A stretch of DNA of 64,000 bases from Klenkia taihuensis (GTDB taxonomy: Bacteria > Actinomycetota > Actinomycetes > Mycobacteriales > Geodermatophilaceae), in contig NZ_FOMD01000002.1 in NCBI RefSeq assembly GCF_900112525.1, positions 620,001-684,000 of the forward strand, in the 5' to 3' direction. Numbering within the stretch: position 1 is the stretch's first letter; each line of letters begins with the position of its first letter. Shown one piece after another: positions 19,436 through 26,792 of the stretch. A program made the translations under genes and the position numbers. Below the pieces are notes generated by a model. The model ran no database searches, was not told the origin of the DNA, and saw only the letters and a program-made list of their open reading frames with translations.

Positions 19436-20596
19436 TCAGGTCTGCGTGCCCGCTGCGCGGGCGGCCAGGCGCTCGCGCTGGGGGACGACGACGTACTTCG
19501 GGTCCTTCGACGACGCCATCCCCGCGTCGAACACGCCGAACCGGGTCAGCGCCGACCCCGCCGCCAGCAGCGCGCCGGAGGCCACCGCACCCCACCGCTT
19601 CCCGCCCAGCACCGCCGCACCCACCGCGCCCGCAGCCGTGCACGCCTTGGCGATGCGCAGCAGCTTCCCGGCCCGGCCGATGTGGAAGGGCTCGCTCACG
19701 ATGCCGTGGTCGTTCTCCACCTTGTGCATCGCGGCCAGCTCCACCGCGGCACCCACGACGGCGGCCTTGCGTGCCGGGCCGGCCTGGTCGACCGGGGTGA
19801 ACGCCATGCACAGCCCGCCGCCGGCGGCCAGACCCGACCCCGTGAACACGAACGGCAGCTGGTTGCCCGGCTCGTGCCACGACGGCGTCGCGGTGTTGGC
19901 CAGCAGCACCGCGGTGTAGGCCGCCATCGGCCCGCCGAACACCGCGCCGCCGACGCCGGCGGTCCTCCGCAGCCACGGCGCCTTCACCCAGCCCGGCACC
20001 CGGTCCACCCGCTCCGCCAGGGTCAGCGCAGCCGCCGCCCCGGTCAGCGCGCTGAAGGGCGACAGGATGTAGGAGCCCACGCTCAGCGGACTGGTCGGCT
20101 TGAACACCCGCAGCATGTGCAGGAACCGCTCCGGCCGGCCCAGGTCGTGGATGAGGAACCCGACGCTGGCGACCGCTCCCCCACCGGCGATCAGGTGCGC
20201 GGTGCGGGCCAGCGCCGGACGGTCGGAGAACTCCGCCGCCGCGCCCAGCACCGCCGACGAGCCCGCCGCGCCGCCCAGGAACAGGTAGAGGGGGACGTCC
20301 GGGGTCTTCCAGACCGCCGACTTCACGATCTGCCGGCCGTAGTAGCTCTGGAACTCGGCGTCCTCGACCGTCGGGTCGCCGTCGCGGGCGCCGCCCCGCC
20401 GTCCGCCGCCCTTGCGCTTGCGGCGCTGCTGGCCCCGGGTCGGGCCGTCCGCGCGGCGCCAGCCACCACCCGGCGTCGCCACCCCCGACGTCCCCGGCCG
20501 GTGGTCCAGCGGGGCGTCGAGCGCCTCGGCCGGGCGGCCACTGGTGCGCATCTCCGGGGTGTCGGCCTGGGCCACCTCGGGGTCGGGCCGCGTCAT
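19436..20596 (-). CDS. NrfD/PsrC-type membrane subunit of formate dehydrogenase
   Basis: The 386-residue protein has a basic, Arg/Lys-rich N-terminal cytosolic segment of about 80 residues and then eight to nine predicted membrane helices of the NrfD (polysulfide reductase) family, with PLYLFLGGAAGSSAVLGAAAE and FLIHDLGRPERFLHMLRVFK as recognisable family segments. It anchors the FdhAB module and passes electrons to or from quinone. ATG 20596 overlaps the FdhB stop (ATGA); the longer frame to 20668 is rejected for that reason. It is the last gene of the operon before the hairpin at 19370. Confidence 0.9.
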   Translation of the reverse strand: MTRPDPEVAQADTPEMRTSGRPAEALDAPLDHRPGTSGVATPGGGWRRADGPTRGQQRRKRKGGGRRGGARDGDPTVEDAEFQSYYGRQIVKSAVWKTPDVPLYLFLGGAAGSSAVLGAAAEFSDRPALARTAHLIAGGGAVASVGFLIHDLGRPERFLHMLRVFKPTSPLSVGSYILSPFSALTGAAAALTLAERVDRVPGWVKAPWLRRTAGVGGAVFGGPMAAYTAVLLANTATPSWHEPGNQLPFVFTGSGLAAGGGLCMAFTPVDQAGPARKAAVVGAAVELAAMHKVENDHGIVSEPFHIGRAGKLLRIAKACTAAGAVGAAVLGGKRWGAVASGALLAAGSALTRFGVFDAGMASSKDPKYVVVPQRERLAARAAGTQT

Positions 20597-21681
20597 CGCC
20601 GCCGTCCCAGGAAGCCGCTCAGCGCGACGCCGACCAGCATCGCCGCCGCACCCGCCGCGTGCCGCCACATCGAGGGCAGGTCGCGGGTGGTCACCACCGG
20701 GTCCGGCGGCAGGCCGTAGACCTCGGGCTCGTCGAGCAGCAGGAAGAACGCCCCCGCGCCGCCCACGCCGTCGTCGGTGTCCCGGCCGTACAGCCGCGCC
20801 GTCGTCACGCCCTGCTCGGTCAACGTGGCCAGCCGGGCGTCCGCGCGGGCCTGCAGCTCGTCGAGGTCACCGAACTGGATGGACTGCGTCGGGCACGCCG
20901 TGGCGCACGCCGGCTGCAGACCGTCGGTGAGCCGGTCGTAGCACATCGTGCACTTGAAGACCCGGCCGTCGCCCTTGCGCTGGTCGATCACGCCGTACGG
21001 GCAGGCCGGCACGCAGTAGCCGCACCCGTTGCAGATGTCGTCCTGCACCACCACGGTGCCGAACTCGGTGCGGAACAGCGCCCCGGTCGGGCAGACGTCC
21101 AGGCACCCGGCGTGCGTGCAGTGCTTGCACACGTCGCTGGACATCAGCCAGCGGATCTCCCGGTCGCCCGACTGGGCGGTCTGCGGGTCGAACGACGACA
21201 GCGCCTGCGCGTTCAGCACGCTGTGCTGGTCGATCGTGGTGCCGTCGGCGTTCCCGTGCGCCGGGGACTCCGAGCCGCACGAGCCGCCGCACCCACCGGC
21301 GGAGCCCACGCCCTGGTCGGGTGCCGCCGGGACCCCCATCGAGGGCATCGGCAGGTCCACCGAGCGTGACTGCTCCACGAAGGCCACGTGCCGCCACGAG
21401 TTCGCACCGAGCATCCCGGTGTTGTCGTAGCTCATCCCGGACAGCCCGAGGGCGTCGCGGGTGCCGTCGGCGTCGTCCATCGGGAGCGTGTTCCACTCCT
21501 TGCAGGCCACCTCGCAGGCCTTGCAGCCGATGCACACGCTGGTGTCGGTGAAGAACCCGACCCTCGCCGGGTGGTCGGGCTCGTACCCGGCCTCCCCGGT
21601 GACGTCGGGCAGCGGCCCGTAGAGCCGGTTCTCCGGGTCGTGCCCGGTGAACGCCGGGCTGGCGGAGCTGAACTGGCTCAC
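20593..21681 (-). CDS. fdhB: Formate dehydrogenase iron-sulfur (4Fe-4S ferredoxin) subunit
   Basis: The 362-residue protein carries four ferredoxin-type cysteine groups: CIGCKACEVACKEWN, CKHCTHAGCLDVCP, CNGCGYCVPACPYG and CTMCYDRLTDGLQPACATACP. These match the four 4Fe-4S clusters of FDH-N/FDH-O beta subunits. A C-terminal hydrophobic segment (about 340-358) may anchor it. A Gly/Cys-rich insert (SAGGCGGSCGSE, near residue 130) is unusual. It relays electrons between the Mo/W active site in FdhA and the NrfD-type subunit. GTG 21681 overlaps the FdhA stop by GTGA. Confidence 0.94.
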   Translation of the reverse strand: MSQFSSASPAFTGHDPENRLYGPLPDVTGEAGYEPDHPARVGFFTDTSVCIGCKACEVACKEWNTLPMDDADGTRDALGLSGMSYDNTGMLGANSWRHVAFVEQSRSVDLPMPSMGVPAAPDQGVGSAGGCGGSCGSESPAHGNADGTTIDQHSVLNAQALSSFDPQTAQSGDREIRWLMSSDVCKHCTHAGCLDVCPTGALFRTEFGTVVVQDDICNGCGYCVPACPYGVIDQRKGDGRVFKCTMCYDRLTDGLQPACATACPTQSIQFGDLDELQARADARLATLTEQGVTTARLYGRDTDDGVGGAGAFFLLLDEPEVYGLPPDPVVTTRDLPSMWRHAAGAAAMLVGVALSGFLGRRR

Positions 21682-24600
21682 GGCTGTGCCTCCGCGACGT
21701 GGTCGGGGGCGCTCTGCGTGGTGTGCGTCTGCCCCTTCTCCTCGCCGGTCATGTTGGTCTCCTCGACGGGCGAGCGCCCACCGACGGGCACCAGCCCGCT
21801 CTTGACGCCGGCGCGCTGCCGGTAGGACTCCACCAGCTCGACCAGCGCGGGACCGCGGGGACGCCGTCCGGGCTGGATGTCGCAGGTAGCGACCTTGGAC
21901 TCCTGGATGTGCACGTTCGGGTCCATCACCACGCCGAACAGGTCGTTGCCGCTGTCGCCGGTGGAGATGCCCTGCTCACCCCAGTGGTACGGGATGCCGA
22001 TCTGGTGCACGACCTGGCCGCGCCCCATCTTCAGCGGCCGCATCCGCTCGGTGACCAGCACCCGCGCCTCGATCGCCGTCCGGGCGCTGACCAGCGTCGC
22101 CCAGCCCGCGTTCTCCAGGCCGCGCTCGTCGGCGAGCTCCGGGGAGACCTCGACGAAGAACTCCGGCTGCAGCTCGGCGAGGTAGGGCAGCGTGCGGCTC
22201 ATCCCGCCGGCCGTGTGGTGCTCGGTCAGCCGGTAGGTGGTGAACACGTACGGGTAGACGTCGCTGGTCGGCGGGTTGCTGCGGTTCCAGGCCGCCTCGA
22301 TGACCTCGCGGCCCGGGTTGGCCTGCTGCCGGTACAGCGCGTTGGGCACCGGCGACTCGTCGGGCTCGTAGTGCGTGGGCAGCGGCCCGTCGGCCAGACC
22401 GGACGGCGCGAACAGCCAGGCCTTGCCGTCGTTCTGCATGATGAACGCGTCGGCCCCGCTGATGCCGTCCGGGCCCTTCGCGCCGGGCTCGGGCCGGTAG
22501 GACGGCGGCTTGGTGGCCTCGAAGTCCGGGACGTCGTGCCCCGTCCACCTCTGCGTCTCCTCGTCCCACCAGACGTAGGCCTTGCGCTCGCTCCAGGGCT
22601 TGCCCTCGGGGTCGGCCGAGGCGCGGTTGTAGAGCGTGCGGCGGTTCGCCGGCCACGCCCAGCCCCACTCCGGGGCCACCCAGTTCTGCTCCCGCCCGGG
22701 CTTGCGGCGGTCGCTCTGGTTGACCTCGTCGGCGTAGACCCCGGTGTAGATCCAGCAGCCGGCCGTCGTCGTCCCGTCGTCCTTGAGCTCGGTGTAGGAG
22801 GACAGCGCCTTCCCGTCGGGGCCCACGCCGTTGATCTCGCGCAGCACCGCCTCTGCACTGGGCTCGACGAGCGGGCCGTGCGTCGGGTAGTCCCAGGTCA
22901 GCGCCTGCAGGCCGCGGTCGCGGGGGTCGGTGGAGTCCTTCAGCCGGTCGCGCAGGATGCGGCCCAGGTGGAAGTAGAACCAGAGGTCGCTGCGGGCGTC
23001 GTCCGGGGGCTCGATCGCCTGCCGGTGCCACTGCAGCAGCCGCTGGGTGTTGGTGAAGGTGCCTTCCTTCTCCGTGTGCGTGGCGGCCGGCATGAAGAAG
23101 ACCTCGGTGCCGATCTGGTCGGTGACCAGCTCACCGGTCTCGATCTCCGGCGCGGTCTTCCAGAAGGTGGCCGACTCGATCATCTGCAGGTCGCGGACGA
23201 CCAGCCAGTCCAGGTTGGCCAGGCCCAGGCGTTGCATCTTGCCGTTGGCGTGGCCCACCGCCGGGTTCTCCCCGACCAGGAAGTAGCCGGGGATCTTCCC
23301 CTGGATCATGTCGGCGACCTGACGGTAGGAGCCGTGGTCACCGTTGATCTTCGGCAGCAGGTCGAAGCAGTAGTCGTTCTCCGCCGTCGCGGCGTCGCCG
23401 AACCACGCCTTGAGCAGGCTGACCATGTAGGCCCGGGTGCCGCCCCAGAACCCGACCATCTCGTCGCCGACCTTGCAGTACTCGTCGAGGCTGGAGTGCT
23501 CGCCCGCGTGCGGCATGGCCAGGTAGCCCGGCAGCAGGTTGTACAGCGTCGGGATGTCGGTCGACCCCTGGATGGAGGCGTGCCCGCGCAGCGCCAGGAT
23601 GCCGCCACCCGGCCGGCCCATGTTGCCCAGCAGCGCCTGCAGGATCCCGGCGGTGCGGATGTACTGCACGCCCACCGTGTGGTGCGTCCAGCCCACCGAG
23701 TAGACCCATGCCGTCGTCCGGTCGCGGCCCGAGTTCGCCGTCACCGCGCGGGCGACGTCGAGGAACACCTCCGGCTCGACGCCGCAGATGTCGCCCACCA
23801 TCTCGGGGGTGTAGCGGGCGAAGTGCCGCTTGAGCACCTGGTAGACGCTGCGCGGGTGCTGCAGGGTCGGGTCGGTGGCCGGGCTCCCGACCTTCCCGGC
23901 GTCCGGGGCCACCGGGTCGATCTCGTCGGTGCCCGTCGCCGACGGCTCGTGCGCGCCCTCGAACTGCCACGACGTCTTGTCGTAGGACGAGGACTCGGGG
24001 TCCCAGCCGGAGAAGAGGCCGTCGAGGTCTTCTGTGTCCTGGAAGTCCTCACCGACCAGGGACGACGCGTTGGTGTAGGCCAGCACGTAGTCGCGGAAGT
24101 CGAGCTCGTTCTCCAGCACGTAGGAGATGAGGCCGCCGAGGAAGGCGATGTCGGTGCCCGCCCGCAGCGGCACGTGGGTGTCCGCCACGGCCGACGTCCG
24201 GGTGAACCGGGGGTCGACGTGGATCACCTTCGCGCCGCGCGCCTTGGCCTCCATCACCCATTGGAACCCGACCGGGTGGCACTCGGCCATGTTCGAGCCC
24301 TCGATGACGATGCAGTCCGCGTTGACCAGGTCCTGCTGGAAACCGGTGGCGCCGCCGCGCCCGTACGTGGCACCCAGACCGGGCACCGTGGCGGAGTGCT
24401 ATATGCGCGCCTGGTTCTCGATCTGGATCGCACCCATGGCGCTGTACAGCTTCTTCATCAGGTAGTTCTCTTCGTTGTCCAGCGTCGCGCCACCAAGGCT
24501 GGCCAGCCCCATGGTGCGGTTGACCCGCTGGTCGCCGTCGAGCTCCTGCCAGCCCTTCTCCCGCGCGGCGAGCACGCGGTCGGCGATCATCTCCATCGCC

Positions 24601-24998
24601 TCATCGAGGGCCAGGTCCTCCCACTCGGTGCCGTACGGACGGCGGTACTTCACCGTCGTCACCCGGGTGGGACTGGTGACCAGCTGCTTGCTGGCGCTGC
24701 CCTTGGGGCAGAGCCGACCGCGGCTGACCGGGGAGTCGGGGTCGCCCTCGATCTGCACGATCTGCTCGTCCTTGACGAACACGCGCTGCCCGCAGCCGAC
24801 GGCGCAGTAGGGGCAGATGCTCTTCACGACGCGGTCGGCGGTCGCCGTCCGGCTCGTGACGGCCTCGGTCCGCTTGCTGCGCGCGGCGTGGCCGCGACCC
24901 AGCGGATCGGGACCGGTGAGCTGGCGGAACACCGGCCAGGAGTCGAGCCACGTCTTCACCGTCGCCACTGTGCCACCGCGTGCGGTGGGCCGCCTCAC
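21678..24998 (-). CDS. fdhA: Formate dehydrogenase catalytic subunit, selenoprotein with TAG-encoded Sec200
   Basis: One frame of 1,107 codons runs from GTG 24998 to TGA 21678, interrupted by a single TAG at 24401-24399 (codon 200). The N-terminus has CPYCAVGC and RLCPKG, the 4Fe-4S ligands C62, C65, C69 and C97 plus the conserved Lys. At codon 200 the context is NQARI-TAG-HSATVPGLGATYGRGG, exactly where molybdopterin formate dehydrogenases have Sec or Cys followed by the catalytic His. The frame continues for 906 more residues with all later FDH domains intact. A SECIS-like hairpin follows (24369-24387). The protein oxidises formate or reduces CO2 at a bis-MGD Mo/W centre. Start may instead be GTG 24968 or 24959. 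Standard gene callers would split it in two. Confidence 0.95.
24369..24387 (-). promoter_or_regulatory. Bacterial SECIS element following the TAG codon of fdhA
   Basis: Counting T of TAG as 1, bases 15-21 (GGTGCCC) pair with 27-33 (GGGTGCC): five Watson-Crick pairs flanking a T17-G31 and a G18-T30 wobble. The apical loop, bases 22-26, is GGTCT. In the E. coli fdhF SECIS the SelB-contacting bases are U17, G23 and U24 in an identical GGUCU loop; all three occur here at the same distances from the recoded codon. Confidence 0.85.
24399..24401 (-). other. In-frame TAG read as selenocysteine (Sec200 of FdhA)
   Basis: TAG stands at the active-site Sec/Cys position and is followed directly by the conserved His codon. 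Three other genes in the window end in TAG (stops at 10668, 27949 and 40609), so TAG is not globally reassigned and the local SECIS must specify Sec. Confidence 0.9.
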
Positions 24999-25007
24999 GG
25001 GCCTGGA

Positions 25008-25214
25008 TCAGTTCCGCCTGCTGCGCACCAGAGCGGTCAGCGCCAGCATCGCGGCCAGCCAGCCGAGCAGGAGGAGGACGTCGCCGGCGTGCAGGCCGTG
25101 CGTGGGGGTCACCCGCACGACGACGGGGCCTTCGAACCGGTACGTGCCGTTCAGCAGCAGGCCGACGAAGCCCGTCAGCACGGCCGCCACGACGAGGGCG
25201 GCCGCTGTTCTCAC
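25008..25214 (-). CDS. Small two-helix membrane protein, first gene of the fdh operon
   Basis: The 68-residue product has two membrane helices (about residues 3-22 and 43-62) with a short polar loop between them (LNGTYRFEGPVVVRVTPTHG). It is 9 nt upstream of the fdhA start and is probably co-transcribed. GTG 25214 is chosen because a TANNNT -10 lies 6 nt before it, consistent with a leaderless transcript; the frame extends to 25268. Its job is unknown; position suggests an accessory or anchoring role for the formate dehydrogenase. Confidence 0.6.
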   Translation of the reverse strand: MRTAAALVVAAVLTGFVGLLLNGTYRFEGPVVVRVTPTHGLHAGDVLLLLGWLAAMLALTALVRSRRN

Positions 25215-25220
25215 AGGTGG

Positions 25221-25226
25221 ACGGTA
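25221..25226 (-). promoter_or_regulatory. Leaderless -10 element of the fdh operon
   Basis: TACCGT on the minus strand is separated by 6 nt from GTG 25214, so the transcript would begin at or next to the start codon. No good -35 is visible. Confidence 0.45.
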
Positions 25227-25293
25227 GGCGCAGGGGGCGGTGGACGGTGGCGGACCGCACCGCCCCACGAGTCACACCGGGTCACTCCTGCCG

Positions 25294-25310
25294 CGTGTCG
25301 CGACGACACG
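25294..25310. promoter_or_regulatory. Palindrome upstream of the TGRH-repeat protein gene
   Basis: CGTGTCG-CGA-CGACACG is a perfect 7-bp inverted repeat with a 3-nt centre, 93 nt before the GTG at 25404. A second one, GACAC(N7)GTGTC, lies at 25330-25346. The same GTGTC...GACAC core recurs at 26956-26979. Confidence 0.5.
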
Positions 25311-25403
25311 CCCGGACAGACTGTTGTCAGACACCTCCGGAGTGTCACCATCTCCGCCGATCGGGTGACCTCGGACAGGCACCCGCAACGGGGAAGGACC
25401 ACG

Positions 25404-26792
25404 GTGGACCAGAGCCCGACGCCCCGCCGCGCGCTGCCGCCGGTGCCGCCCCCGGCCCGCCCGTCGGCCACCACGACGCTGGCGCCGCCCGCCGACGAGA
25501 CGACCTGGTTCGACGCCCTCGACCCGATGGTCGACTCGATGCGGCTGGGTCCGCTGGACGACGGCACCGCCGCCGGCGCCGCCCGCGACCTCATCCGCGA
25601 CTCCGCCCGCCAGCCGGTGCTCGACCAGGCACTGCTCGAGGCGCTGGACGCCGCCGCCAAGGCCGCCGCCGCCCGCCGCGCCGTCACGATCGACCTCCCG
25701 GCGCCCCCCACCGGCTCGCTGCCGGCTGCCGCCGTCGCCTCGGCCGTCGCCGCCGCTCCCCCTGCCCCCGCACGCCCGCCCGTGCCCGCCCCGGTCGTTG
25801 CCGCGCCCCCGGTCGCGGCTGCGGCCCCGGTCCCTGCCGCCGCCCCGGCGACCGTCGCCGCCCCCGTCGCGGACCTCACCGAGGCGGACGACCTCGAGGG
25901 CGAGCTGGACGACGAGATCGACGAGGACCCGGACGACGACGCTCCCCCGCCGGCGCCCGGTCTGCGCACCGCGCACGCCGCGTCCCTGCGCATCGCCCCG
26001 CAGCCGGTGGCCGAGCCGGTGACCGAGGTCGACGTCGCCGCCGAGTTCGCCCGGCACGACGACTTCCTCGAGACCGGCCGGCACGCCCTCGACCAGGAGT
26101 GGCTGTCCGACACCGGTCGCCACCACGTCGTCACCGACACCGGCCGGCACTACGCGGTCGAGGTCACGCCCGACGACGACGACGACGCCGGGCCGCTCAC
26201 CCACCGCACCGTGATCACCCGCTCCTCCAGCGCCCGCCGCTGGATCCCCGCCGGCATCGGCGCGGGAGTGCTGTCCATCGTCGCCGCGGTCCTGCTCACC
26301 AGCGGGTTCGCCAGCGGCGGCGCCCCCACCGGCACCGACGAGGCCGCCCGCACCGGCGAGGCCGGCACCGAGGCCCCGGCCACCACCACCCCCGCGCCGA
26401 CCATGCCGGGGATGGACACGATCGACCTGTCGGGCACCGTCGCCCCGAGCACCGCGGACTCAGCCCAGCCCGACGTCGACGACGCCGCCCCCCAGGTCGC
26501 CACCCCGCCCACCACGGTGCGCGCCGGCTCGCAGGCCGTCGTCCCCGGCGCCGGCGCGGGCACCGGCTCAGGGTCCGGGACCGGCAGCGGGTCGGGGACC
26601 GGCACCACCGGTGGCGGATCCACCGGCAACGGGTCCACCAGCGGCGGCACGACGACCGGCGGGACGACGACTGGCGGCGACTCCAGCAGCACCCCGGCGA
26701 CGCTCAGCAACACCTCGCCGCCCAGCACGCCCACCGAGGAGCCGACCGAGGAGGCCCCCTCCTCCAGCGCCGCGGGATCCGACACCAACTGA
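25404..26792 (+). CDS. Ala/Pro-rich single-pass membrane protein with TGRH repeats
   Basis: The 462-residue product is low-complexity. A cytosolic half contains one folded-looking helix region (ETTWFDALDPMVDSMRLGPL), a long Ala/Pro tract and an acidic patch. TGRH occurs three times (near residues 223, 236 and 245), then one membrane helix at about 280-302 and a Ser/Thr/Gly-rich extracytoplasmic tail. GGGGAAGGACC precedes GTG 25404. I do not recognise the family. Its architecture resembles the neighbour at 27068, and both have a similar palindrome about 90 nt upstream. The open frame upstream to 21699 is antisense to fdhA and is not coding. Confidence 0.75.
   Translation: MDQSPTPRRALPPVPPPARPSATTTLAPPADETTWFDALDPMVDSMRLGPLDDGTAAGAARDLIRDSARQPVLDQALLEALDAAAKAAAARRAVTIDLPAPPTGSLPAAAVASAVAAAPPAPARPPVPAPVVAAPPVAAAAPVPAAAPATVAAPVADLTEADDLEGELDDEIDEDPDDDAPPPAPGLRTAHAASLRIAPQPVAEPVTEVDVAAEFARHDDFLETGRHALDQEWLSDTGRHHVVTDTGRHYAVEVTPDDDDDAGPLTHRTVITRSSSARRWIPAGIGAGVLSIVAAVLLTSGFASGGAPTGTDEAARTGEAGTEAPATTTPAPTMPGMDTIDLSGTVAPSTADSAQPDVDDAAPQVATPPTTVRAGSQAVVPGAGAGTGSGSGTGSGSGTGTTGGGSTGNGSTSGGTTTGGTTTGGDSSSTPATLSNTSPPSTPTEEPTEEAPSSSAAGSDTN

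Follow-up and report, generated by a model that had tools for sequence, protein, structure and literature searches.

The window analyzed here, a stretch of 64,000 nucleotides from Klenkia taihuensis (contig NZ_FOMD01000002.1, positions 620,001 to 684,000), codes on its minus strand for the catalytic subunit of a formate dehydrogenase, fdhA, whose reading frame is broken once by a TAG. Judging from its sequence and from comparison with relatives, this gene almost certainly specifies a functional formate dehydrogenase that contains selenocysteine (Sec), with UAG as the Sec codon. The elements on which this reading turns are:

21678..24998, minus strand: fdhA, formate dehydrogenase catalytic subunit, a single frame with one internal TAG, ending in TGA
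24399..24401, minus strand: UAG codon predicted, from its context and from codon/anticodon agreement in relatives, to be read as Sec at the catalytic position, followed by His
24369..24387, minus strand: predicted apical hairpin of a bacterial selenocysteine insertion sequence (SECIS), with 7 base pairs and a GGUCU loop (loop 24376-24380), from RNAalifold and pair counts

Translation of 21678-24998 (minus strand) gives 1,106 codons and a final TGA, with the TAG at 24401-24399, at position 200 of the protein, as the only interruption. The surrounding residues, NQARI*HSATVPGLG, place the stop at the catalytic Sec/Cys position directly before the catalytic His, as the initial annotation had claimed. 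When read through, the protein matches the NCBIfam formate dehydrogenase model NF041513 with 1918 bits (cut-off 1400) over residues 17-1062 and TIGR01553 with 934 bits; the Molybdop_Fe4S4 domain lies 5' of the TAG and the Molybdopterin and Molydop_binding domains lie 3' of it. The formate dehydrogenase motifs do continue downstream in the same frame. The annotation's single TAG stands, and its length of 1,107 codons is to be taken as an upper bound, because the start codon is unsettled, with GTG at codon 1, 11 or 14 as candidates. The ratio of nonsynonymous to synonymous substitution rates (dN/dS; Nei-Gojobori), computed between the window gene and six relatives from its genus group, is 0.09-0.28 upstream of the TAG (197-199 codons; six relatives) and 0.16-0.25 downstream of it (906 codons in one relative; 660-664 in the five with cut loci). 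Therefore, both parts of the gene look selected as protein.

We then searched the whole genome (4.32 Mb, 10 contigs) for the Sec apparatus and found it clustered at C3:154510-159724. A full-length tRNA-Sec lies at C3:156605-156696 (RF01852, 65.7 bits, cut-off 47, Rfam), and ARAGORN reads its anticodon as CTA, i.e., CUA. At E 10 the genome has 13 weaker tRNA-Sec matches, all under the cut-off; the two that were scanned (L002, L004) are tRNA-Ser. The selA gene begins about 50 bases downstream of the tRNA (TIGR00474, 405 bits, over the curated cut-off), and selB overlaps the selA end (TIGR00475, 271 bits, cut-off 242). On the other strand, 1.2 kb upstream of the tRNA, lies selD (C3:154510-155424; TIGR00476, 385 bits, over the curated cut-off). 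All four components that the initial annotation had proposed to look for are thus present, which excludes a genome without SelB or a CUA tRNA-Sec. Its placement of the DNA in the Geodermatophilaceae was also right, because the closest named SelA among the best loci listed is that of Klenkia brasiliensis (95% identity), and Klenkia belongs to this family. K. brasiliensis likewise carries an fdhA with a single TAG. By analogy with bacterial Sec decoding, the CUA tRNA-Sec would be charged with Ser, and SelA would convert the charged tRNA to Sec-tRNA using selenophosphate supplied by SelD. SelB would then bind both this tRNA and the hairpin that directly follows the UAG, and would compete with release factor 1 to deliver Sec to that single codon.

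The agreement between codon and anticodon extends across related genomes. Among the best 80 of 466 loci recovered in a SelA search over named genomes, the tRNA-Sec anticodon read by ARAGORN is CTA in 38 and TCA in 30, with no tRNA-Sec in the remaining 12 loci; a search of the whole genome recovered one over the cut-off in 12/12 of these, the best match in each being TCA. The CTA loci carry Geodermatophilaceae titles in 37 of 38 cases, and the exception, titled Bacillus sp. AZ43 (L028), falls with Blastococcus in the SelA tree and is probably mislabelled. An fdhA with TAG was present in 37/37 of the named CUA genomes searched, which were all of the 38 but L030. Of the 42 UCA genomes, 21 were searched: 19 had an FdhA match, with TGA at the site in 19/19, and two had no match at E 1e-150. 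A second set comprised 112 genomes that GTDB grouping places in the window's family. A tRNA-Sec above the cut-off is present in 108 of them, amounting to 110 genes (102 CTA, 8 TCA), and the eight TCA genes are distributed as one each in seven genomes of genera g6, g7 and g8, plus one in the genome G086. In these seven UCA genomes (L122-L127, L130) no FdhA was matched at E 1e-60; their genera bracket the anticodon switch. FdhA matches were found in 100 of the 112 genomes, and 118 of the 123 matches contain exactly one TAG, so that 98 of the 100 genomes with a match have a TAG fdhA. The five non-TAG matches are four pieces in G107 and one partial match in G061 that starts beyond the site.

A predicted SECIS hairpin lies 11 nt after the TAG. 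We aligned the flanks of TAG genes (A1, 46 rows, 45 distinct) and of TGA genes (A2, 27 distinct rows), and RNAalifold, run separately on the 45 TAG and the 27 TGA sequences, returned the same GGUCU-loop hairpin, with seven pairs in the TAG set and the inner six in the TGA set. Pairing is retained in 99.0% of 315 cells in the TAG alignment (45 distinct rows) and in 94.7% of 189 cells in the TGA alignment, where the outermost pair is broken in 10/27 rows. The covariation score is 0.263 in the TAG set against 0.110 in shuffles (0/500 as high; slid versions at most 0.056) and 0.266 in the TGA set against 0.150 (0/500 as high; slid versions at most 0.105). Each set has two pairs that changed on both sides, a count that shuffles equal or exceed in 151/500 (TAG) and 87/500 (TGA). 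The core CCCGGTCTGGG is found in 27/27 A2 rows and in the 46 A1 rows. Two of 17 further TAG sequences depart from this core: L331, in which the innermost C-G pair is turned to G-C, and L329, with a changed loop base. Compensatory changes in the aligned pairs support the prediction of a SECIS after the UAG.

Could the TAG instead be a nonsense mutation or a sequencing error in a decaying gene? UAG does serve as an ordinary stop here, ending 5 of 34 composition-selected open reading frames (ORFs) of the window, with the internal one excluded. Against this stand the presence of the TAG in 118/123 family matches and in 98/100 genomes with a match, dN/dS values well below 1 on both sides, and the matching CUA tRNA-Sec in the same genome. 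Decay is already refuted, because the TAG is conserved, and we give it a negligible probability; the initial annotation's view that this is not a decayed locus is upheld by the same conservation and selection. That the TAG encodes pyrrolysine is suggested by the ARAGORN label of tRNA-Pyl for the CUA tRNA; against it, the sole Rfam match at gathering score in the locus (L001) is the tRNA-Sec noted above, the tRNA sits directly upstream of selA, and the codon occupies the Sec position of formate dehydrogenase, where the relatives with a UCA tRNA carry TGA. Pyrrolysine is accordingly a most improbable reading. Near-cognate tRNAs can read through UAG in general, and such a tRNA or a suppressor might insert a residue other than Sec without SelB. 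This explanation would leave the CUA tRNA-Sec and a covarying SECIS hairpin without a purpose, and would have to disregard selA, selB and selD, all present over their cut-offs; we consider it barely credible.

Several observations weigh against a UAG-encoded Sec in a working FdhA. The best SelB match spans only residues 1-343 of 574 in TIGR00475. The gene for the iron-sulfur subunit, fdhB, reaches only 174 bits with its best model, TIGR01582, under the curated cut-off of 334.7. In G107, a genome of the window's own genus, two fdhA copies are without the Sec codon and the SECIS stretch though a CUA tRNA-Sec is present. The shuffle controls for the hairpin take no account of relatedness. Further, the single-sequence fold of the window's SECIS region is no stabler than shuffles (z -0.01), its minimum-energy fold differs from the hairpin, and an inverted-repeat search just after the TAG returned three palindromes only. 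The case for the hairpin is therefore a comparative one. As for the two G107 copies (L317, L318), both run on into the same bases past the gap, which could reflect real deletions or an assembly artefact.

The SelA tree comprised 57 of 143 distinct rows, which were drawn from the named loci and from the family's other genera; the count leaves out 11 rows whose loci lack a tRNA-Sec and whose genomes are TCA. On it, all 11 CTA rows fall into a single clade (support 100), as against 35 TCA rows. The FdhA tree comprised 115 distinct proteins (88 TAG and 27 TGA; rows under 500 residues and duplicates left out; short search, LG+G4). Here, however, the TGA/TAG label requires at least five changes, each forced by well supported branches, and a single TAG clade is rejected (approximately unbiased test, p 0.00018). 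Five changes are still needed when the long branch L068 is removed, and a smaller tree of 97 rows needs three. Among the TAG genes, L326 is paired with a TGA gene of the Nocardioidaceae; L118 and L327 group with Actinomadura terrae, with L329 adjoining that group; and L113, L119, L180, L328 and L340 group with L173, from a Pseudonocardia terrae genome. The count itself does not separate gains from losses. The simplest reading suggests that UGA-type fdhA genes were transferred into CUA genomes and later changed to UAG, the direction from TGA to TAG being argued from the distribution of the anticodons. L068 (Nocardioides mangrovicus) has a TGA fdhA with ATA before the stop and a SECIS flank resembling that of the Geodermatophilaceae; perhaps its TAG changed back to TGA after transfer.

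The codon directly preceding the UAG shows a second regularity:

24402..24404, minus strand: rare AUA codon (Ile) that directly precedes the UAG and is shared by every distinct TAG fdhA gene read

This Ile codon is ATA in 88/88 distinct TAG proteins, and in the TGA proteins it is ATT in 25/27 and ATA in 2/27, namely L090 (Rhodococcus phenolicus) and L068, whose long branch adjoins the main clade of TAG genes. ATA accounts for 3 of 310 Ile codons in the selected window ORFs, the fdhA one included, and this one is the sole ATA among the 38 Ile codons of the window fdhA. At nearby Ile positions of the TAG genes (61 contexts), ATC is used in 59/59 at -7, and at -9 we found ATC in 42 and ATA in 4. 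When the association of ATA with TAG is counted on independent pairs, typically four go the same way, none the opposite way and one shows no difference (median p 0.125; 0.05 is unreachable with so few pairs). Possible causes are an effect of the codon in the peptidyl site on competition with release factor 1, or a very short tract copied from a resident gene. Long gene conversion is a less likely source of the ATA-TAG pair, since L326 retains CGT at -2 and AGT at +11: CGT at -2 occurs in 16/27 TGA rows and 0/45 TAG rows, and AGT at +11 occurs in the TGA rows L052 and L066 and in none of the A1 rows.

One genome of the family, G086 (probably Geodermatophilus sp. LHW52908), carries two kinds of tRNA-Sec. 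Its CUA tRNA-Sec lies on contig C11 and its TAG fdhA on C70; the second tRNA-Sec, with a UCA anticodon (81.8 bits), lies on C17, a contig of 69 kb. Beside the latter is a peroxidase-related gene (L181:1579-2154; TIGR01926, 112.6 bits, cut-off 81.8) that matches the (seleno)protein model NF041238 weakly (51.8 bits, cut-off 175). It has an in-frame TGA in a CxxU motif (...NRCFY*MESH...), with a hairpin predicted 10 bases after the TGA in a fold made without a control. The guanine-cytosine (GC) content of C17 is 59-65% from about 1 to 6 kb, at the contig end, and about 70-79% in 3-kb steps over the rest. The ORFs beside the low-GC stretch are presumably transposase-like, and near the other end lies a gene that we take to be TrkA-like. 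The latter is 90% identical to its counterpart in another genome of the family; C17 therefore belongs to the Geodermatophilaceae, with a false join at the contig end being possible. At E 1e-12 the peroxidase-like gene finds matches in 73 of the 112 family genomes; apart from the G086 cassette gene itself, these show at most 40% identity and no internal stop, so that G086 alone among the 112 has this gene. A search for the donor of the UGA cassette at E 1e-30 in 394 genomes of the class gave no match, which shows little, and selA was not found in L181.

Taken together, these results allow a joint reading, which we hold tentatively and with slightly less than even confidence: the Sec codon would be local and swappable. 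Transferred UGA fdhA genes would have been re-edited to UAG several times in CUA genomes, each time with the synonymous change to AUA, suggesting that AUA helps UAG-Sec decoding. In G086, a mobile island would have carried in both a second, UCA tRNA-Sec and the UGA selenoprotein gene that belongs to it; a single cell might then read UAG as well as UGA as Sec via shared SelA, SelB and SelD.

In the window, fdhA is followed by genes for two further subunits:

20593..21681, minus strand: fdhB, iron-sulfur subunit (TIGR01582 below cut-off; PF13247 Fer4_11)
19436..20668, minus strand: NrfD-type membrane subunit, after fdhB (PF03916 NrfD, 48.2 bits, cut-off 25.8)

The GTG start of fdhB at 21681 overlaps the fdhA stop and the NrfD-type gene comes next, in keeping with the coupling of both genes to fdhA described in the initial annotation. 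An ORF of 1,697 codons runs antisense to fdhA (21699-26792, plus strand) and probably reflects no more than the high GC content. A further ARAGORN prediction at 1936-2022, a tRNA with a four-base anticodon and no assigned type, lies inside a long ORF and is probably spurious.

UAG-encoded Sec was reportedly described in the Geodermatophilaceae by Mukai and colleagues in 2016. Consistent with that study, PMC5330540 gives three Geodermatophilaceae that have a CUA tRNA-Sec. It also describes a TAG-encoded Sec in an AhpC of Blastococcus saxobsidens, and mentions selenoproteins with a UGSC motif. The recoding itself is thus already published for the family, as the initial annotation had stated, and this fdhA adds a case, which shares with the earlier ones the family, the CUA tRNA-Sec and a TAG as the Sec codon of formate dehydrogenase. 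In contrast to the UGSC and AhpC cases of that account, the UGSC model matched nothing in the window's genome (weak evidence, there being no positive control), and none of its six AhpC-TSA matches is interrupted by a stop in the matched region; the search for further selenoproteins covered these two families. Relative to the canonical actinobacterial UGA-Sec formate dehydrogenases, the enzyme, the Sec position and the SECIS core CCCGGTCTGGG are the same, whereas the canonical type has TGA with a UCA tRNA-Sec and mostly ATT, not ATA, before the stop. More broadly, UAG, UAA and ten sense codons have been recoded to Sec in some species, according to PMC10778597; passages of PMC8318568 and PMC7609411 add nothing further on this. 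No paper on Klenkia and selenoproteins together was found in the searched literature, whose coverage is partial. Likewise, the repeated conversion of fdhA, the AUA signature and a genome with both Sec codons are not mentioned in the accessible part of PMC5330540, and no description of any of them was found in that partially covered literature; they may be in print.

The fdhA gene is a clean and testable natural case of stop-codon reassignment, and gene callers will probably report it as two genes. What makes it valuable is the set of comparative results that surround it. If G086 does use two codons, it would be a natural cell with two Sec codons, and the AUA signature would offer an inexpensive starting point for better UAG-Sec insertion in engineered systems. 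The Geodermatophilaceae allow testing how a reassigned codon is maintained despite the arrival of genes from organisms with a different one.

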